Source: Herbidospora yilanensis (lineage in GTDB: Bacteria; Actinomycetota; Actinomycetes; Streptosporangiales; Streptosporangiaceae). From it: 64,000 nt of DNA. The stretch lies in assembly GCF_001570565.1 (NCBI RefSeq), contig NZ_BBXE01000023.1:1-64000 (forward strand). The letters are read 5' to 3'. Below, piece after piece: positions 1-7,763 of the stretch (positions are counted from its first letter, which is position 1; each line of letters opens with the position of its first letter). Position numbers and translations under genes: made by a program. Below the pieces are notes generated by a model. That model had not been told where the DNA came from and did no database searches. It saw only the letters and a list, made by a program, of their open reading frames with translations.

Positions 1-984
1 GCTCCACTTGAGCGTGTGGCCCGAGTAGGCGTGGTTGCCGTCCGGGTGCTTGCCGCTCGGGTAGCCGAAGACGTAGACCGACTGGCCGACCTTCTGGTTG
101 TACGCGAGGCCCTGGCCACCGACGTTGTCGCCGAGACGGCCAGCGTCCACGAACTTCCAGACGAAGTAGACGTAGACGTCGTCCTTCTCGCCCGGCTTGT
201 CCACGATCTTCCACTTGAACGTGTCACCCTTGAAGGTGTCCCAGCCCCAGTACTGGTCGTAGACCTCCTTGGAGACCTTCTGCCAGCCACCGAGGTCGTT
301 CCAGCCCTCGCCGCCCCCAGCGATGGGGGAAGGCGTCTTGCCGCCGAAGGCGGGGCCGTCGTGCGGGGCCTTCAGACCGTTGTACACGGTGACGAACGCG
401 TAGTTGCGGTCGCCGTCCTCGTACACGTCGAAGTCGTAGTGGGTGAAGGCCTGCTTACCCACGTAGATGCCCCACGGGGTCTTGCCCTGGTAGTAACCGG
501 GGACGAAGATCCAGTTGTTCAGGGTCGCCTTGTTGGACACGACGTCGTAGACGCAGTGGCCGGCGGTCGCGACAAGGTTCTTGTACGCGGCCTGAACGGA
601 GGTGGCGGTGCACCAGTGCGGCTCACCGTTCGCACCGGTGAAGAACACCTTGCCCGTGGTCTTGGGCAGGTTGACGTTCTTCGAGGTGCTGGTGACCTTC
701 TTCTCGTCACCGATGGCGGGAACGATCCCCGGCTTGGTGTCGGCGGTCGGGCCACCGGTCGAGACGTGCTTCCCGACGACCTGGGTCTCCACGTCGTAGG
801 GGGTCGCGCCCACGAGGTTGGCGGCCTTGTTGGCCGTCCAGTAGGCGACGATGTTCTGCGCCGCGATGCCGGTGGAGGCCAGCGGGGTGCTGGCGACGTC
901 ACCGGCGGCGGAAGCCGGCTGGGTGACGAGGGCGGAGGCCAGCAGGCCCGCCGCCACGCCACCGAGGGCGAGAGTGCGCTTCAT
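1..984 (-). CDS. Secreted trypsin/V8-like serine peptidase homologue, paralogue 1 (3' end outside window)
   Basis: 328 residues are visible from the ATG at 984, with AAGGAG 7 bases upstream; the gene runs off the left edge. Residues 1-27 are a Sec signal peptide (basic start, Leu/Ala core, cleavage near ASA-AG). The peptidase fold keeps the catalytic His143 in ATAGHC. The position of the catalytic Asp, just before YAFV, is Asn in DRNYAFV. The last visible residues are LKWS where paralogue 3 has KWC, so a conserved cysteine is missing. The serine nucleophile lies outside the window. It is the most downstream of five tandem paralogues and shares long near-identical blocks with paralogues 2 and 3. 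Secretion is clear; weak or absent protease activity is inference, and the substrate is unknown. Confidence 0.85.
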   Translation of the reverse strand, partial: MKRTLALGGVAAGLLASALVTQPASAAGDVASTPLASTGIAAQNIVAYWTANKAANLVGATPYDVETQVVGKHVSTGGPTADTKPGIVPAIGDEKKVTSTSKNVNLPKTTGKVFFTGANGEPHWCTATSVQAAYKNLVATAGHCVYDVVSNKATLNNWIFVPGYYQGKTPWGIYVGKQAFTHYDFDVYEDGDRNYAFVTVYNGLKAPHDGPAFGGKTPSPIAGGGEGWNDLGGWQKVSKEVYDQYWGWDTFKGDTFKWKIVDKPGEKDDVYVYFVWKFVDAGRLGDNVGGQGLAYNQKVGQSVYVFGYPSGKHPDGNHAYSGHTLKWS

Positions 985-1148
985 GGGGGAACTCCTTGGT
1001 CTGTACGTGGGCCGCATCTTGCGTCCCATGCGTCAGGAAAGGGATGAGTGGACCTTACAGCCGCGATCTTCGGTGACTGAAGTGATCCGTGAGTCTTGTT
1101 GATCACCCTGAGTGACGGAGATCTGTCCGTGATGTTGATGACCTGGTG

Positions 1149-1164
1149 TTGACAGATCTGTCAA
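1149..1164. promoter_or_regulatory. 16-bp perfect palindrome upstream of paralogue 1
   Basis: TTGACAGATCTGTCAA reads identically on both strands, 165 bases before the ATG at 984. Its core AGATCTGTC (1154-1162) recurs 35 bases closer to the gene at 1119-1127. A repeated palindromic core in a promoter region suggests an operator for a dimeric regulator, but I cannot name the regulator. The rest of the 985-1348 gap holds the CRP-like box and the terminator of the next gene and no convincing gene. Confidence 0.5.
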
Positions 1165-1259
1165 TGCGACCAAAGGGATGGAAGCGCAGCTCCGATGCCA
1201 TCGAGATGTGACCGGCGAATGGCGTAGGGAACCACAGGTTGCTGAGAAGACACTGGGAA

Positions 1260-1275
1260 TGTGATGCGAATCACA
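1260..1275. promoter_or_regulatory. CRP/GlxR-type binding site
   Basis: TGTGATGCGAATCACA matches the CRP-family consensus TGTGA-N6-TCACA with no mismatch; the flanking A and T extend the symmetry. It lies in the gap upstream of paralogue 1 (start 984). A second, longer copy lies upstream of paralogue 2 at 2695-2716, which supports a shared cAMP-CRP-type input to this protease cluster. Its distance from the start (276 bases) is large, so its role as activator or repressor is unknown. Confidence 0.6.
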
Positions 1276-1307
1276 TCGAATCAGTGGAACCGGTCGCGAA
1301 CGGCAAA

Positions 1308-1332
1308 GGGCCCGGTCCAATCGACCGGGCCC
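1308..1332 (-). terminator. Hairpin terminator after paralogue 2
   Basis: Arms GGGCCCGGT and ACCGGGCCC around a 7-base loop, 17 bases past the paralogue 2 stop codon. No long U-run follows on the minus strand. Confidence 0.6.
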
Positions 1333-1348
1333 TCGACCGTGGAGACGA

Positions 1349-2548
1349 CTACGCGATCGAGCCGCTCCACACGTTGGCGGCGGCCTTGTAGACGCCGTAG
1401 GTCTCGCCGTCGAAGTAGGCCGAGACGCTCGTGTCGATGCGCCTGTTGCCGTCGGTGTCGGACACCCCGCTGGTCAGGCCGTTCAGGTAGCCGAGGCGGC
1501 GGGCGCTCTTGTACTGCGACAACCACGCCGAGCCCAGCGAGCCCTGGCCGGTGAACGACGACTTCACGCCGATCAGCTCCTCGGCCTTCACGGCCGACGC
1601 CTTGGCCTTGAACGTCTTGCCGTAGCTCCACTTGAGCGTGTGGCCGGTGTAGGCGTGGTTGCCGTCCGGGTGGGAGCCGCTCGGGTAGCCGAAGACGTAG
1701 ACGTTCGTGCCGACCTTCTGGTTGTAGGCCAGGCCCTGGCCGCCGACGTTGTCGCCGAGGCGGCCGGCGTCGGTGAAGCGGATCACGTAGTACTTGCCCT
1801 TGATCGGGCCGGGCGAGCGGATGGCCTTGCTGTAGGTCTCCCACTCGGACTTGGAGACTTCCTTGGTGTTCTCGGTCCGCATCCACTTGGCGAACTCGCT
1901 GCCCTTGGCGGGCAGGCCCGACGCCGGGGCCTTGAGGCCGTTGTAGACGGTGACGAACGCGTAGTTGCGGTCGCCGTCCTCGTAGACGTCGAAGTCGTAG
2001 TGGGTGTAGGCGGTCTTGCCGACGTAGATGCCCCAGGGGGTCTTGCCCTGGTAGTAGCCGGGCACGAAGACCCAGTAGTCGAGGGTGGCCTTGTTGGTCA
2101 CCGTGTCGTAGACGCAGCTTCCGGCGGTGGCCACCAGGTTCTTGTACTTCGACTGCAGCGAGGTGGCGGTGCACCAGTGGGGCTTGCCGTCGCCGCCGCG
2201 GAAGAACACCTTGCCGGTGGTGCGGGGGAGGTTGACGTTCTTGGAGGAACCGCCCGACTTGGCCTCGTCGCCGATGGCGGGGACCGTTCCAGGCTTTCCG
2301 TCGGCCGCGGGGCCGCCGGTGGAGACGTGCTTGTTGACCTTGATGGTCGTCTCGGCGTTGTAGGGGGTCGAGCCGACCAGGTTGGCGTACCTGTTGGCGA
2401 ACCAGTAGGCGACGACGTTCTTGGCCGCGAGCGAGGTCTTGGCCAGAGGGTCGCTCGCCACGTCGCCGGCCGCCGAGGCGGGCTGGGCGACGAGGGCGGA
2501 GGCCAGCAGGCCGGCTGCCACACCGGAGAGGGCGAGGGTGCGCTTCAA
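1349..2548 (-). CDS. Secreted serine-peptidase-like protein, paralogue 2; all catalytic positions substituted (predicted pseudoprotease)
   Basis: I start at TTG 2548: GGAG lies 5 bases upstream and the signal peptide then aligns with paralogue 1 (MKRTLAL). An in-frame start at 2650 would add 34 residues before the signal peptide and is unlikely. The product is 399 residues with a Sec signal to about residue 27. At the catalytic His the sequence is ATAGSC (Ser144), at the catalytic Asp it is DRNYAFV (Asn195), and at the nucleophile it is GSLGS (Leu338) where paralogue 3 has GSSGS. Two cysteines kept in paralogue 3 are also Ser here (KWS 308, VKS 330). The cysteines around the His loop remain. 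Fold and export look intact, so this is not a decayed pseudogene. A binding, decoy or inhibitor role is inference. Confidence 0.85.
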   Translation of the reverse strand: MKRTLALSGVAAGLLASALVAQPASAAGDVASDPLAKTSLAAKNVVAYWFANRYANLVGSTPYNAETTIKVNKHVSTGGPAADGKPGTVPAIGDEAKSGGSSKNVNLPRTTGKVFFRGGDGKPHWCTATSLQSKYKNLVATAGSCVYDTVTNKATLDYWVFVPGYYQGKTPWGIYVGKTAYTHYDFDVYEDGDRNYAFVTVYNGLKAPASGLPAKGSEFAKWMRTENTKEVSKSEWETYSKAIRSPGPIKGKYYVIRFTDAGRLGDNVGGQGLAYNQKVGTNVYVFGYPSGSHPDGNHAYTGHTLKWSYGKTFKAKASAVKAEELIGVKSSFTGQGSLGSAWLSQYKSARRLGYLNGLTSGVSDTDGNRRIDTSVSAYFDGETYGVYKAAANVWSGSIA

Positions 2549-2694
2549 GGGTGCTCCATGCGTTGGTAAAGGGACCGTCAGGACGATATGCGGGATGTTC
2601 CGCGTGTCCAAAGCGGCTTCACCGGGCCTTTGGGGCCGTTGTGCACGCATCGTCGCAGGTGGGAACTTGACTGACGCCAGTCGGATCTTGGTCT

Positions 2695-2716
2695 AAATGT
2701 GACCCGAATCACATTT
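2695..2716. promoter_or_regulatory. CRP/GlxR-type binding site with perfect 8-base arms
   Basis: Arms AAATGTGA and TCACATTT are separated by six bases (CCCGAA), an ideal CRP-type box. It lies 147 bases upstream of the paralogue 2 start at 2548 and just past the terminator of paralogue 3. See also the copy at 1260-1275. Confidence 0.68.
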
Positions 2717-2765
2717 TTCCATGGCACCGAAATCCGTCTATGTACGTCTAATTCTCTCGCGCATG

Positions 2766-2797
2766 AAAAAAGGGCCCGGCCAGATGCGGCCGGGCCC
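2766..2797 (-). terminator. Intrinsic terminator after paralogue 3
   Basis: Minus-strand hairpin of perfect 10-base arms (GGGCCCGGCC with GGCCGGGCCC, 6-base loop) followed by six U residues, 10 bases after the stop codon of paralogue 3. Confidence 0.85.
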
Positions 2798-2806
2798 CTC
2801 GTCGTC

Positions 2807-4000
2807 CTAGGCGATCGAACCCGACCACAGGTTCGCCGCGTGCTTGTAGATGCCGTAGGTCTCTCCGTCGAAGTAGGGCGAGAGGCTGACGTCGATGCGG
2901 TCGTTGCCGTCGGTGTCGGACACCGCGGCGGTGACGCCGTTCAGGTAACCCTTGCGGCTGGTGTTGCTGTACTTGTACATCCAGGCCGAGCCCGACGAGC
3001 CCTCGCCGGTGAAGCTGCACTTGACGCCGAGCAGCTCCTCCGCCTTGATGGCCGGCGCGGAGGCCGGGAACGTGGTCCCGTAGCACCACTTCTGGGTCTG
3101 GCCCGTGTAGGCGTGGTTGCCGTCGGGGTGTGACCCGCTCGGGTAGCCGAAGACGTAGTCCTTCACGTTCCTCTTCTGGTTGTACGCGAAGCCCTGGCCG
3201 CCCACGTTGTCGCCCAGGCGGCCCGCGTCGACGAACTTCCAGATGTAGTACTTCGAGCCGACCTTCTTCGTGTACTTGTCGACGATCCACGGGTAGGTGC
3301 CGTAGGAGCGGTACTTGTCCCACTCGCTCTTGGAGACCTTCTTCCAGTCGCCGTCGAGCGGGCCGCCGTCGTGCGGGGCCTTCAGGCCGTTGTAGACGGT
3401 GACGAAGGCGTAGTTGCGGTCGAAGTCCTCGTAGACGTCGAAGTCGTAGTGGGTGAAGGCCTGCTTGCCGACGTAGATGCCGTAGGGGGTCTTGCCCTGG
3501 TAGTAGGCCGGGACGAACACCCAGTACTTCATCGTGGCGGCGTTCGACTCGGTGTCGTAGACGCAGTGCCCGGCGGTGGCGACCAGGTTCTTGTACTTCG
3601 ACTGGAGCGAGGTGGCGGTGCACCAGCGGGGGTTCTTGTCGGCGTCCAGGAAGAAGACCTTGCCGGTGGTGCGGGGCAGGTTGACGTTCTTGGACGAGGT
3701 GGAGCCCGCGCCGCCGATCGGGGAGACGAGGCCGGGCTTGCCGTCGGCGGACGGGCCGCCCTTCGACAGGTGCTTGGCGACGACCTTGGTCTCGACGTCG
3801 TAGGGGGTGGCGGCGTTCAGGTTGGCCTTCGACTGGCCGTACCAGAAGGCGACGACGTTCCAGGCGGCGATGCCGCTGCCGGCCAGCGGGTCGGACGCCT
3901 CGTCGGGAGTGGCGACGGCCGCGGACGGGACGGCCAGGGCCGCGCCGAGAAGGCCGGCGGTGGCGCCGAGGAGGGCGAGGTGCTTCGCTCGGGTTCGCAT
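2807..4000 (-). CDS. Secreted trypsin/V8-like serine peptidase homologue, paralogue 3
   Basis: 397 residues; AAGGAG sits 6 bases before the ATG. Signal peptide to about residue 30. His145 is present in ATAGHC and the nucleophile Ser336 in GEGSSGSAW, which resembles the GNSGS motif of V8-type (S1B) peptidases. The residue expected to be the catalytic Asp is Asn196 (DRNYAFV); paralogues 4 and 5 have Asp there. Cys306 (KWC) and Cys328 (VKC) are kept and probably pair. Two residues of the triad are therefore intact and the third is changed, so catalysis may be weak, or a nearby Asp may substitute (inference). It has its own terminator and a roughly 90-base upstream gap to paralogue 4. Confidence 0.88.
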   Translation of the reverse strand: MRTRAKHLALLGATAGLLGAALAVPSAAVATPDEASDPLAGSGIAAWNVVAFWYGQSKANLNAATPYDVETKVVAKHLSKGGPSADGKPGLVSPIGGAGSTSSKNVNLPRTTGKVFFLDADKNPRWCTATSLQSKYKNLVATAGHCVYDTESNAATMKYWVFVPAYYQGKTPYGIYVGKQAFTHYDFDVYEDFDRNYAFVTVYNGLKAPHDGGPLDGDWKKVSKSEWDKYRSYGTYPWIVDKYTKKVGSKYYIWKFVDAGRLGDNVGGQGFAYNQKRNVKDYVFGYPSGSHPDGNHAYTGQTQKWCYGTTFPASAPAIKAEELLGVKCSFTGEGSSGSAWMYKYSNTSRKGYLNGVTAAVSDTDGNDRIDVSLSPYFDGETYGIYKHAANLWSGSIA

Positions 4001-4091
4001 GGTGGTGCTCCTTCATTACAGAGGGTGTGCTGTGATGAAGGTAGGTTCGTGCGCTTTATCCCTGCTTTATTCGCGGTTGCAAGGCGCTTGC

Positions 4092-5204
4092 TCAGGCCGT
4101 GGCCTGCTTGGCGGCCTGCTGGTAGACCCGCGCGGTGATCGTGTTGAAGTAGGGGGAGGACGCCGCGTCGAGCTTGCCGTCGGCGTCGATGTTCCACGTC
4201 AGGCTGGTCACGCCGTTGAGGAACCCGGTCTTCTTCGCCGGATCCCAGCCGAGCACCCACGGGCCGCCGCTCGCGCCCGCCGTGAACGGGCACGGGTTCA
4301 GCAGGACGCCGTTCTCCAGGAGATAGGTGGGCGCCGTCGCGGCGGTGGCCCTGGTCGTGCCGGAACAGGACCGGACGACCTGGCCGTCGAAGGGGCGGCT
4401 GCCGTCGGGGTGGGCGCCGGCCGGGTAGCCGAACACCGACACCGGACGCGAGCGGCCCTTCGTCGAGGCGAACTGGAACGCGCCGACCTTGTCTTCGAGC
4501 CGGCCGCCCTGCACCCGCTGGTCGCCCTTCCAGGTGAAACCCCGGTAGACGGTCACGAAGGCGTAGTCGCGGTCGTAGTCGCCCGCGCCCGAGAAGTCTT
4601 CGTGCAGGTAGAGCGTGTGGCCGACGTAGATGCCCGCGTCGGTGGAGCCGCCCGCGTAGGACGGGATGAAGACCCAGTTCTCCACGGGCTTGTTCTGGCC
4701 CAGCGACCAGCCGCAGTGGCCGGCCGTGGCGACCAGGTTGCGGTTCTTGGAGTGGACGACCGAGCCGGAGCACCAGTACTCCTTGTCGCCCAGCTTGAAG
4801 AAGACCTTGCCGACCATCGGCTGCTGGGAGGGCGCGAGCGCGCGGGCCGAGGTCGTCGTCGTGCTCTGGCGGGAGAGCTCCGCCATCGAGGGGGCCTGCC
4901 GCGCCCCGGTGGCCGGCTTGGAGGCCGGGACGTAGGTGCTGGCCTCCTTCAGCCGCTCGGGCGTCCAGTAGGCGGCGACCTTCTGCATGTCTCCGCCGGT
5001 CGCCGCGAGGGGATAGGCCATGACGCCCTTGCCGAGGTGCCGCTCGGCCGGTGGCGCGGCCTCCTTGGCCGAGACCTCCATCAGGGGCGCCGTGGGCGGG
5101 GCCGCGATGGCGGGAACCGAGGTCGGCGTCCAGATCGAGAGGAGCGCGGCGGCACCCAGCGCGGCGGCGACGCCGCCCGCGGCAAGGGTGATCCGCCTGG
5201 TCAT
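4092..5204 (-). CDS. Secreted trypsin/V8-like serine peptidase, paralogue 4 (intact triad)
   Basis: I start at ATG 5204 (GAGAGG upstream), which places the signal/anchor segment at the N-terminus; a start at 5267 would add an unlikely hydrophilic stretch. 370 residues. An export segment (residues 8-25) is followed by a roughly 100-residue Ala/Pro/Thr-rich stretch that may be a propeptide. The catalytic domain has His163 (ATAGHC), Asp213 (DRDYAFV) and Ser312 (GASGGP), with cysteines at 145/164 and 280/305 positioned for disulfides. This is the canonical S1 chymotrypsin-like arrangement, so an active extracellular endopeptidase is likely. It is the most divergent of the five in sequence. No clear terminator follows. 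Confidence 0.9.
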   Translation of the reverse strand: MTRRITLAAGGVAAALGAAALLSIWTPTSVPAIAAPPTAPLMEVSAKEAAPPAERHLGKGVMAYPLAATGGDMQKVAAYWTPERLKEASTYVPASKPATGARQAPSMAELSRQSTTTTSARALAPSQQPMVGKVFFKLGDKEYWCSGSVVHSKNRNLVATAGHCGWSLGQNKPVENWVFIPSYAGGSTDAGIYVGHTLYLHEDFSGAGDYDRDYAFVTVYRGFTWKGDQRVQGGRLEDKVGAFQFASTKGRSRPVSVFGYPAGAHPDGSRPFDGQVVRSCSGTTRATAATAPTYLLENGVLLNPCPFTAGASGGPWVLGWDPAKKTGFLNGVTSLTWNIDADGKLDAASSPYFNTITARVYQQAAKQATA

Positions 5205-5261
5205 GGGGGCCTCTCGGGGGTCTCGTGACGGAGGTATCGATCGTAAGGGGTGATTTTTCCA

Positions 5262-5275
5262 GATCACCAGTGATC
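5262..5275. promoter_or_regulatory. Inverted repeat upstream of paralogue 4
   Basis: Arms GATCAC and GTGATC around a 2-base centre, 58 bases before the ATG at 5204. The arm is reminiscent of the CRP-type half site but the spacing is wrong for CRP. It is a plausible operator or promoter element only. Confidence 0.3.
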
Positions 5276-5378
5276 AGGCACAGGTTCTTGGCTGTCTCGT
5301 TATGAATTCGGGGGAACCGAACGGCCCTCTGACCCGTCCGAGTAGATCGGGCCGAAGCTACGGCCCGTGTAAAGGAAA

Positions 5379-5411
5379 GTGCCCGGGAGACGAAGAACGT
5401 CCCCCGGGCAC
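5379..5411 (-). terminator. Hairpin terminator after paralogue 5
   Basis: Arms GTGCCCGGG and CCCGGGCAC with a 15-base loop, 17 bases past the stop codon of paralogue 5. Confidence 0.6.
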
Positions 5412-5427
5412 CCGGTGCGAGGTCGTG

Positions 5428-6537
5428 TCACGCGGTCCAGCGGTTCGCCGCGACCTTGTAGACGTCGTAGGTCTCGCCGTTGAAGTAGGGCGAGGAGAGC
5501 CGGTCGTACCGGTCGTTGCCGTCGGTGTCCCAGGCGATGCTGTTGACGCCGTAGAGGTAGCCGGAACGGGTCTTGCTCTTGTAGTTCCAGAGCAGGGGGC
5601 CGCCGCTGGCGCCGGCGGTCATGCCGCACTTGATGCCGACGTGCTCCTGGACGTTGTACTTCGGCGCGGCCGGCATGGCGGCGGTCTGGCCGTAGCACCA
5701 CTTCATCGTCTTGCCGCTGAACGGACGGTCGCCGTCGGGGTGCGGGCCGGCCGGGTAGCCGAACGAGAAGACGTTGGTCTTGGTGCTGCGGTTCCAGGTG
5801 AAGCCCTGGCCGCCGACGTTGTCGCCGAGGCGGCCGACGGAGGTCTTGACGAGCTTGTACTTGCCGTCGACCTTCTCCCAGCTCGCCTTGTAGCCGGAGG
5901 CGACGTTGACGAACGCGTAGTCGTAGTCGTAGTCCTCCTTGACCACGAAGTCGTCGTGCGCCTGGTACCAGGTGGCCGGGTAGATGCCGTAGGGCGCCTT
6001 GCCGTTCCACGCCTGCGTGCCATCCCAGTACGACGGGATGAACACCCAGTTGTCGTAGAAGCGGTTGCTGGCCGGGTCGTACACGCAGTGGCCGGCGGTG
6101 GCCACGACGTTGCGGAACTTGCCCTGGATCGAGGTGCCGGAGCAGTACTTCCAGCTCTTCGGGTCGAGCGGGTTCTTGCCGGGCAGGGTGAAGAACACCC
6201 GGCCGACCGTGTTGGGCAGGTTGACCTGCTTGCTGGCGGGCGTGCCCGCCTTCTCGCCGCCGATCGGCGGGACCACACCGGCCTTGCCGTCGGGCTCGGG
6301 GGTGCTCGGACGGCCCGAGCCCTTCACCGCGTTGCCCAGCTCCTCGGTGCGGTCCTTCGCGGCGCGGAGCCGGTCGGGGGTCCAGAACTGCGCCGCGGCG
6401 GCGGCCGTGGTGGGGGCCGCCTTCTGGGTCACGTCACTGGGGGCCGTGGCCGTGGCCGACGAGGCGGTGCCCACGGCGCCGAACGCGACCAGCGCGCCGG
6501 CGACGGGGATGGAGAGACGTCGTGCTCGGGAGATCAT
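5428..6537 (-). CDS. Secreted trypsin/V8-like serine peptidase, paralogue 5 (intact triad)
   Basis: 369 residues; a Sec signal peptide (basic start, Val/Ala/Gly core) ends near residue 30. His150 (ATAGHC), Asp206 (YDYDYAFV) and Ser311 (GASGGP) form a complete triad, and KWC/IKC supply the C-terminal cysteine pair that paralogue 2 lacks. The stretch between residues 35 and 105 (FWTPDRLRAA onward) is probably a propeptide. Together with paralogue 4 it looks like the active ancestor-type form of the array. Extracellular proteolysis is the expected role; the specificity is not readable from sequence. Confidence 0.9.
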   Translation of the reverse strand: MISRARRLSIPVAGALVAFGAVGTASSATATAPSDVTQKAAPTTAAAAAQFWTPDRLRAAKDRTEELGNAVKGSGRPSTPEPDGKAGVVPPIGGEKAGTPASKQVNLPNTVGRVFFTLPGKNPLDPKSWKYCSGTSIQGKFRNVVATAGHCVYDPASNRFYDNWVFIPSYWDGTQAWNGKAPYGIYPATWYQAHDDFVVKEDYDYDYAFVNVASGYKASWEKVDGKYKLVKTSVGRLGDNVGGQGFTWNRSTKTNVFSFGYPAGPHPDGDRPFSGKTMKWCYGQTAAMPAAPKYNVQEHVGIKCGMTAGASGGPLLWNYKSKTRSGYLYGVNSIAWDTDGNDRYDRLSSPYFNGETYDVYKVAANRWTA

Positions 6538-6800
6538 CGAAGTCCTTTCCCTTGGGACGAATTGAGGGTGCGTCCCAAATACGTGGAAACAGCTCCGAAC
6601 GTTAATGACGCGATCGCGGTCAACGCCCTAGATATAACGAGAGGGCTGGGTCAATTGGCCTTACCGTTATTCATGCGCTGCCGTTATGAATGGCGTCCTC
6701 GCAGGTGATCCCTGGTTTGCCATTTCGGTTTACGTATTATTCGCGGCGGGTCTCAGTCCCTTTTGTCACTCTCGTAACAGGGATAGAGTAATGTTCTGCC

Positions 6801-7763
6801 ATGATCGCAGTAACGGCTTCGCAGACCGATCCGAACGACCCGCTGAAGGGTCTGACCGTGGGCGAGCGGCCCGAGCCCGCCGTCCCCGACGGCTGGACGA
6901 CGGTGACCGTCAGGGCCGCCTCGCTCAACCACCACGACCTGTTCACCCTGCGCGGGATCGGCATCAGCCCCGACCGGCTGCCGATGACGCTCGGCACGGA
7001 CGCGGCCGGGGTCGACGAGGCGGGCAACGAGGTGATCGTGCACTCGGTCATCGGCACGCCGGTCAACGGCGACGAGACCCTCGATCCCCGGCGGACGCTG
7101 CTCTCCGAGCTCCACCAGGGCACCTTCGCGGAGAAGGTCGTGGTGCCCAAGCGGAACCTGGTGCCCAAACCCGCGGCTCTCTCGTTCGAGCACGCCGCCT
7201 GCCTGCCGACGGCCTGGCTGACCGCCTACCGGATGTTGTTCGAGAAGTCCGGGCTGGAGCCCGGATCGACGGTCCTGGTCCAGGGCGCGGGTGGGGGCGT
7301 GTCGACCGCGCTGATCACCCTGGGCCGGGCCGCCGGCTATCGCGTCTGGGCGACGAGCCGGTCGGAGGCCAAGCGGGGCAAGGCGCTGGAACTGGGCGCC
7401 GACCAGGTGTTCGAGACCGGCGGACGGCTGCCCGAGCGGGTCGACGCCGTGATGGAGAGCGTGGGGGAGGCGACCTGGGACCACTCGATCTCGTCGCTGC
7501 GGCCCGGCGGCCGGGTGGTGATCTGCGGCGCGACCAGCGGCATGGTCGCCCCCACCAAACTGGCCCAGGTCTTCTTCCTGCAGAAGCAGATCATCGGCTC
7601 GACCATGGGCACCCGCGACCAACTGGGCAGACTCGCGGTCTTCCTGGAGCAGACGGGTGTGCGCCCGCTGGTCGACCGGGTGCTCCCGCTGACCGAGGCC
7701 CGCGAGGGCGTGGCGGCCATGGCCGGGGGCGACGTGTTCGGGAAGATCGTCTTCACTCCCTAG
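6801..7763 (+). CDS. Zinc-independent MDR-family quinone/alkenal oxidoreductase
   Basis: 320 residues from the ATG at 6801, preceded by a -10-like TAGAGT region. It is a medium-chain dehydrogenase/reductase: GroES-like N-terminal half with SLNHHDLFTLRG, then the Rossmann nucleotide-binding motif VQGAGGGVST near residue 155 and GGRVVICGATSG near residue 238. The catalytic-zinc His/Glu set (GHE) and the structural four-cysteine lobe of alcohol dehydrogenases are absent, so an NAD(P)H:quinone or enone reductase is more likely than an alcohol dehydrogenase. It stands alone on the plus strand, divergent from paralogue 5. Confidence 0.88.
   Translation: MIAVTASQTDPNDPLKGLTVGERPEPAVPDGWTTVTVRAASLNHHDLFTLRGIGISPDRLPMTLGTDAAGVDEAGNEVIVHSVIGTPVNGDETLDPRRTLLSELHQGTFAEKVVVPKRNLVPKPAALSFEHAACLPTAWLTAYRMLFEKSGLEPGSTVLVQGAGGGVSTALITLGRAAGYRVWATSRSEAKRGKALELGADQVFETGGRLPERVDAVMESVGEATWDHSISSLRPGGRVVICGATSGMVAPTKLAQVFFLQKQIIGSTMGTRDQLGRLAVFLEQTGVRPLVDRVLPLTEAREGVAAMAGGDVFGKIVFTP

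Follow-up and report, generated by a model that had tools for sequence, protein, structure and literature searches.

A selectively maintained S1-fold pseudoprotease in a tandem protease array of Herbidospora yilanensis, preceded by a CRP/GlxR-type palindrome

A pseudoprotease gene in an S1-type array

The 64,000 nucleotides analysed here (the window) open contig C23 (NZ_BBXE01000023.1) of the 7.85 Mb genome of Herbidospora yilanensis, whose genus comprises soil actinomycetes of the family Streptosporangiaceae. They carry five S1-type genes arranged head to tail on the minus strand (paralogues 1 to 5, P1 to P5; Table 1). The second of these, P2, combines a two-barrel chymotrypsin-like fold (S1 family, PA clan), in a model that aligns up to residue 393 of its 399 amino acids (aa), with the loss of the His-Asp-Ser triad of an active S1 peptidase. 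Since the gene is also under selection (see below), P2 is a pseudoprotease in the usual sense of a protease fold with replaced catalytic residues. Its TTG start is preceded by GGAG and is kept in 7/7 Herbidospora orthologues. Position equivalences were taken from an alignment of the paralogues and a profile alignment to the solved S1 proteases 3wy8 and 3cp7. Both place Ser144, Asn195 and Leu338 at the catalytic His, Asp and Ser positions and Ser308 and Ser330 at the positions of one Cys pair, as a preliminary description of the gene had proposed, and all five replacements are identical in the seven orthologues. A one-residue insertion ahead of the catalytic Ser position makes the register ambiguous there, and Ser337 could slide onto it. 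Ser337 was rejected as an alternative nucleophile; it is unlikely to be essential, because Ala occupies this position in one P2 orthologue and in many paralogues.

Neither P2 nor P3 matched any Pfam family up to an E-value of 1, the cut-offs of PF00089 (Trypsin) and PF13365 (Trypsin_2) not being reached, and a search of NCBIfam returned no family for P2; P4 and P5 exceed the curated cut-off of PF00089. Residues 364-372 of P2 (DTDGNRRID, window positions 1433-1459), several of which are conserved among P2 homologues, bear what we take to be a likeness to a calcium-binding loop. The gene had been credited with a terminator of its own. A strong hairpin does follow the stop codon directly (-35.1 kcal/mol, z -6.7), but its U tail is short and a consensus terminator scan of positions 900-6900 found none, though two hairpins fold well.

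Table 1. Coordinates of the P2 gene, its features and the neighbouring paralogues within the window.
Feature	Position	Strand	Remarks
P2 gene, S1-fold pseudoprotease with signal peptide	1349..2548	-	399 aa, TTG start
Putative Sec-type signal peptide, about residues 1-28	2465..2548	-	Inferred from N-terminal sequences
Pro-region-like segment, residues 29-101	2246..2464	-	Predicted helix 39-58; structure model
Codon 144, AGC (Ser), catalytic His position	2117..2119	-	Identical in 7/7 orthologues
Codon 195, AAC (Asn), catalytic Asp position	1964..1966	-	Identical in 7/7 orthologues
Codon 338 (Leu), catalytic Ser position	1535..1537	-	Leu in 7/7 orthologues
Codon 308 (Ser), first Cys position of lost pair	1625..1627	-	Identical in 7/7 orthologues
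Codon 330 (Ser), second Cys position of lost pair	1559..1561	-	Identical in 7/7 orthologues
Enlarged interdomain loop, residues 206-258	1775..1933	-	Variable across the Ser-less clade
Hairpin directly 3' of P2 stop	1300..1340	-	Possible terminator, weak U tail; folding
Palindrome TGTGA-N6-TCACA upstream of P2	2698..2713	.	Perfect in P2 and 6 other orthologues
CRP/GlxR-type palindrome upstream of P1	1260..1275	.	Perfect match
Paralogue 1 (P1)	1..984	-	His and Asn at His/Asp positions; contig end truncates it before the Ser position
Paralogue 3 (P3)	2807..4000	-	His and Ser present, Cys pair kept, no box
Paralogue 4 (P4)	4092..5201	-	Intact His/Asp/Ser triad in 7/7 species; no box
Paralogue 5 (P5)	5428..6537	-	Intact His/Asp/Ser triad in 7/7 species; no box

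Maintenance under purifying selection

Orthologues of P2 are present in all seven Herbidospora genomes searched. The six others are 93-97% identical to P2 and free of stops, and variable positions number 45 of 399. Simple pairwise estimates between species of the ratio of non-synonymous to synonymous substitution rates (dN/dS) were similar for P2 and the intact P5: 0.044 (21 pairs) versus 0.040 (6 sequences, 15 pairs) with YN00, and 0.169 (mature part) versus 0.146 (7 sequences) with NG86. When YN00 was restricted to the mature part, 14 of 21 pairs were usable for P2 (0.018) and 3 of 21 for P5 (0.027). The absolute values of the two methods diverge at such G+C content, and only the comparison between genes was used. 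Synonymous divergence (dS) is low across P2 residues 102-205 (0.086 versus 0.126-0.197 in other regions). P2 had been described as something other than a product of random decay, a view against which ratios near 1 with premature stops in sister strains would have spoken; the comparison between species revealed neither, and pseudogene decay was rejected, dN/dS being far below 1 and like that of P5. P2 is thus a pseudoprotease kept by purifying selection.

The Ser-less clade and the order of loss

Our set of 220 homologues was drawn from 307 open frames, many of which were fragments or shadow frames. To be kept, a sequence needed the two Cys of the first pair, any residue at the Ser position and an acceptable one at the His position, and three doubtful fragments were discarded by hand. 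The loci were picked by similarity to P2 and the gene counts are non-independent samples, so that the frequencies given here are no estimate for the whole family and the Ser-less set may look more conserved than a fair sample would. An intact His-Asp-Ser triad (HDS) is found together with the second Cys pair in 60 proteins and without it in 14. In another 110 the Cys pair is missing and the Ser position is taken by Leu, Ile, Val or Ala (Leu or Ile in 108, a count that reflects few independent events); 31 proteins show Asp at this position, and 5 have kept Ser but lost Asp or His.

The 14 proteins with an intact triad and no Cys pair are at odds with the coordinated loss of triad and disulfide proposed previously, and point to stepwise loss instead. 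Nine of them group with one protein that keeps the pair, and these ten are sister to the Ser-less clade (joint node support 0.93); four others branch elsewhere outside it (L098:2947-4407, L109:1325-2626, L104:3351-4589 and L079:3106-4155). Because this sister group keeps the triad and mostly lacks the Cys pair, the disulfide was probably lost before the catalytic Ser. Parsimony requires a minimum of 7 changes for Ser (present or not), 13 for Asp, 8 for His and 7 for the Cys pair. Forms with Ser, Asn and Leu at the three positions (SNL, as in P2) arose in Herbidospora and separately in Microtetraspora loci, and SDL, RDL, NNL and QNI forms were also found among the homologues. Judging from these sequences, the triad decayed stepwise, mostly with Ser replaced first (by Leu or Ile) and with changes of Asp and His mostly later and repeated. 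P3, which keeps Ser and has Asp or Asn at the Asp position, and one QSS protein are exceptions to this order. Separately, L115:2607-4136 (plus strand), nested inside the Ser-less clade, has Ser at the catalytic position, no Cys pair and no box; reversion, a retained Ser or recombination are all possible.

The best 80 of 268 matches to P2 come from Herbidospora, Sphaerimonospora, Acrocarpospora, Microtetraspora, Microbispora, Planotetraspora, a further Streptosporangiaceae bacterium and Nonomuraea, the matches of the last being of the Ser-to-Asp type. A homologue at an E-value of at most 1e-3 was detected in 109 of 120 genomes of a Streptosporangiaceae sample. An order-level sample gave a match at 1e-20 in 92 of 200 genomes; every genome listed, matched or not, belonged to this same family, and homologues outside the Streptosporangiaceae were neither seen nor excluded.

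A CRP/GlxR-type box associated with the loss of Ser

The P2 palindrome, TGTGACCCGAATCACA, lies approximately 150 bases upstream of the start codon. The window holds two TGTGA-N6-TCACA sites at 0-1 mismatch, both perfect and located upstream of P1 and P2. Chance would yield 0.93 sites in the window, and at least 2 sites occurred in 19 of 100 shuffles; the number of boxes alone is therefore unremarkable. Their distribution among the homologues is more telling. Within Herbidospora, a box is found at most 400 bases upstream of 55/60 Ser-less genes and 0/29 genes with Ser; of the five Ser-less genes without a box, three are SNL genes whose intergenic gaps are short and two are distant HDD genes. 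Outside Herbidospora, the box precedes 62 of 78 Ser-less and 11 of 38 Ser-bearing genes. These counts leave out 15 genes with fewer than 300 bases upstream, and because starts were assigned by rule, the upstream window of some genes may be displaced. Of 137 further named loci, largely from the same genera and with starts set by a rough rule, 15 were removed as repeats, 4 because of gaps and 14 for want of upstream sequence; in the rest, the box stood ahead of 47/57 Ser-less and 9/47 Ser-bearing genes. When both traits were simulated as evolving independently on a 309-sequence tree, 3 of 2000 runs reached the observed association; with only the box simulated, none of 2000 did. The association between box and Ser loss thus exceeds what shared ancestry predicts.

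That P2 is preceded by a CRP-type box of its own is borne out by the perfect site; the box is no private property of this gene, however, for in other genera it also precedes relatives with an intact triad, indicating that the box characterised a lineage before the loss of catalysis. The H. yilanensis genome has 17 perfect sites, six of them ahead of Ser-less P2 homologues and one ahead of P1; the ten others lie near genes including those for sugar transporters, an NlpC/P60 protein, a CAP-domain protein and a response regulator. HTH_Crp_2 matches above the cut-off are present in this genome. The consensus given for Corynebacterium GlxR in the extract of PMC3972247 used here is TGTGA-N2-TA-N2-TCACA, and the central TA also occurs in 32/49 perfect boxes of Herbidospora and 31/60 of other genera; the P2 box, a putative operator, differs in having CG at its centre.

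Box-to-start distances are long in P1 (window 985-1275) and in other array genes (approximately 100-290 bases). Upstream regions of array genes also share a conserved stretch around CCCTTTCCTGACG-ATGGGACGC shortly ahead of the start.

An enlarged interdomain loop

The segment between the two barrels (residues 203-262) has a median length of 70 aa (46-240) in Ser-less proteins versus 17 (5-63) in intact ones. Its sequence is variable, the mean top frequency in the Ser-less set being 0.36 in the loop versus 0.88 and 0.83 in the framework. The structure model predicts the loop of P2 to be ordered. Loop and framework dN/dS ratios (NG86) were 1.13 and 0.16 for a long HNL paralogue, 0.99 and 0.27 for the group next to P2, 0.35 and 0.08 for HDD_end, 0.20 and 0.13 for P3, 0.14 and 0.24 for P4, and 0.09 and 0.15 for P5.

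The long HNL paralogue (L022, L058, L060, L062, L064, L066 and L068) has a loop insert of approximately 160 aa whose dN/dS is close to 1 and whose similarity between species is patchy, which suggests that segments have been exchanged. No Pfam domain scored above its cut-off in the inserts of the long paralogues; a Cas9-domain match there was weak, below its cut-off, and was taken as chance.

The array and its other members

The five paralogues of the window, which begins at a contig end, are part of a larger array. Elsewhere in the H. yilanensis genome, C53 has four further copies, C15 and C25 together have two long ones, and more distant copies lie on C18 and C21. The array is whole in six other Herbidospora species, where it comprises 10 or 11 genes and the catalytic Ser is absent in 6/10 or 7/11. 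In P3 the catalytic Asp is replaced by Asn here and in three other Herbidospora species (4/7) and is retained in 3/7, so that P3 is possibly a protease losing its activity now. The last gene of the array (L021:2734-3873, minus strand) and its orthologues carry Asp at the catalytic Ser position in 7/7 species; His, Asp and both Cys pairs are kept, and a perfect box lies approximately 100 bases upstream. Nonomuraea has similar Ser-to-Asp genes with a box.

A probable non-catalytic binding scaffold

The reading that we favour builds on the computed fold, replacements, purifying selection, clade, box association and loop enlargement, and holds that P2 is probably a secreted non-catalytic binding scaffold under CRP/GlxR-type control, for which secretion, binding, the role of the loop and control by cyclic AMP are inferred. 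P2 would be one member of an old, expanded Streptosporangiaceae family of S1-fold pseudoproteases with signal peptides. It should fold like a trypsin-type protease, yet the normal mechanism is presumably closed to it: none of the three catalytic residues is left, and a bulky aliphatic side chain stands at the nucleophile position. Outside the cell it would act in binding, with the conserved two-barrel framework holding the enlarged loop, and the loop, which differs between paralogues, would supply specificity. The putative CRP/GlxR-type operator would separate the control of P2 from that of the adjoining intact proteases, which lack it.

Several observations weigh against this reading. Confidence in the P2 model is medium (mean predicted local distance difference test score, pLDDT, 69.8) and low near the Ser loop. 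Among the 11 boxed Ser-bearing genes of other genera, the Cys pair is missing from nine and present in two. Enlargement of the loop started before the loss of Ser and is not tied to it, since HDS proteins without the Cys pair (median 50 aa, 39-154, n=14) and Ser-to-Asp proteins (38 aa, 0-180, n=31) already have longer inter-barrel segments. The loop of P2 itself does not evolve fast (loop and framework dN/dS 0.30 and 0.15, no gaps), and the same holds for the long QNI paralogue (0.27 and 0.13); the intact-triad group HDS_end also shows a high loop ratio (1.31 and 0.25), over only 11 codons. The two fast pseudoprotease loops, those of the long HNL paralogue and of the group next to P2, combine raised dS with gaps, which suggests recombination besides selection; the members of the group next to P2 are possibly not strict orthologues. 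Part of these two high values may stem from recombination, from imperfect orthology or from misalignment.

It is conceivable, though tentative, that the dead protease fold of this family serves more broadly as a display scaffold. Co-regulated secreted binders would then share a conserved framework and carry a diversifying, recombining loop directed at changing partners (competitors, phages or secreted proteins of rivals), CRP/GlxR recruitment having come first and catalysis having been shed later, more than once.

Other functions can be envisaged for P2. As a decoy, it would soak up the protease inhibitors secreted by other bacteria and so shield the intact P4 and P5, with which it shares an array and a fold; many framework positions are, moreover, conserved in both the Ser-less and the intact sets. 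We regard this as unlikely. The preference for Leu or Ile over a small residue at the nucleophile position (108/110) speaks against a simple inhibitor decoy, as a bulky side chain there should disturb substrate-like inhibitors, and control would differ between the decoy and the enzymes it protects, since no intact gene of the array has the box. It is also rather unlikely that the dead cleft holds the peptide of a partner protein to build a larger secreted complex, in the manner of the particle subunit UmbA. A trypsin-like domain of Streptomyces coelicolor UmbA without a full triad binds the N-terminus of UmbB and does not cleave it, according to the extract of PMC11062931 consulted, but P2 ends right after the S1 fold and has no room for a lectin domain. 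An enzyme with a moved nucleophile or some other chemistry is quite improbable: Ser340, one candidate, has a weighted frequency of 1.00 in the Ser-less set versus 0.13 in the intact set, yet it is present too in relatives with the normal Ser, while both base and acid are gone from P2 and the alternative Ser337 is Ala in an orthologue. Finally, the already disfavoured view of P2 and its relatives as decaying tandem duplicates, kept by chance or gene conversion, would fit the plain tandem duplication and the low dS of residues 102-205, as expected of homogenisation or codon constraint, but is most improbable given stop-free orthologues with the same five replacements, a dN/dS like that of P5 and a Ser-less clade that covers several genera.

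Comparison with known systems

Anisep of Arthrobacter nicotinovorans (3wy8) and AL20 (3cp7) possess the triad residues and the four Cys of the two pairs, unlike P2, and have no insertion matching its enlarged interdomain loop. UmbA, which is part of the Streptomyces umbrella toxin particles and has six paralogues in S. coelicolor, showed no activity in the two trypsin-like domains tested, its cleft serving in binding; compared by description, UmbA and P2 are alike in being actinobacterial trypsin folds without a full triad (all from the extract of PMC11062931). According to the same extract, UmbA differs in having lectin domains and working with UmbB and UmbC, P2 being without an extra domain. 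The ALF repeats of UmbC gave no match in a search of the genome, but the search control was equally silent.

The scabies mite inactivated protease paralogues (SMIPPs; 3h7o) are a family of an animal parasite and represent an unrelated setting. The P2 model and 3h7o share 13% identity, with a Z-score tied with those of many active S1 proteases. SMIPPs nevertheless offer a precedent for a dead trypsin fold used in binding (PMC5427104, in part). MamO of magnetotactic bacteria resembles P2 as a bacterial trypsin-like protein that has lost catalysis, in its case with binding gained, and pseudoproteases arose independently in three taxa; unlike P2, it is Deg-related, has a transporter domain and binds metal, and the portion of the report referred to here does not describe it as part of a tandem array (PMC4794232). 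The Chp and Pat-1 proteins of Clavibacter were rejected as a parallel, their function being abolished by substitution of the catalytic Ser in the account excerpted from PMC11290698.

In a proteomic study of Microbispora, the proteins over-represented at 90 h include ETK32012.1, ETK32013.1 and ETK31048.1, and models of over-represented proteins without known function were of alkaline serine proteases, a peptidase or a trypsin-like protein (extract of PMC4709908). Proteomic studies may now label proteins such as P2 serine proteases. A description in print of a Ser-less S1 array family was sought in open-licence PMC papers and was not found among the matches listed. The bacterial trypsin-like pseudoproteases that we found described, UmbA and MamO, are toxin-particle subunits or single proteins in the extracts concerned (PMC11062931, PMC4794232). 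Here, a large array family is at hand in which Ser-less genes outnumber intact members in the six species with the whole array, comparison across genera reveals the order of loss, and the loss of Ser is accompanied by a different control element. Two questions are thereby made testable, namely whether a regulatory change precedes the loss of enzyme activity and what role a retained dead protease plays outside the bacterial cell.
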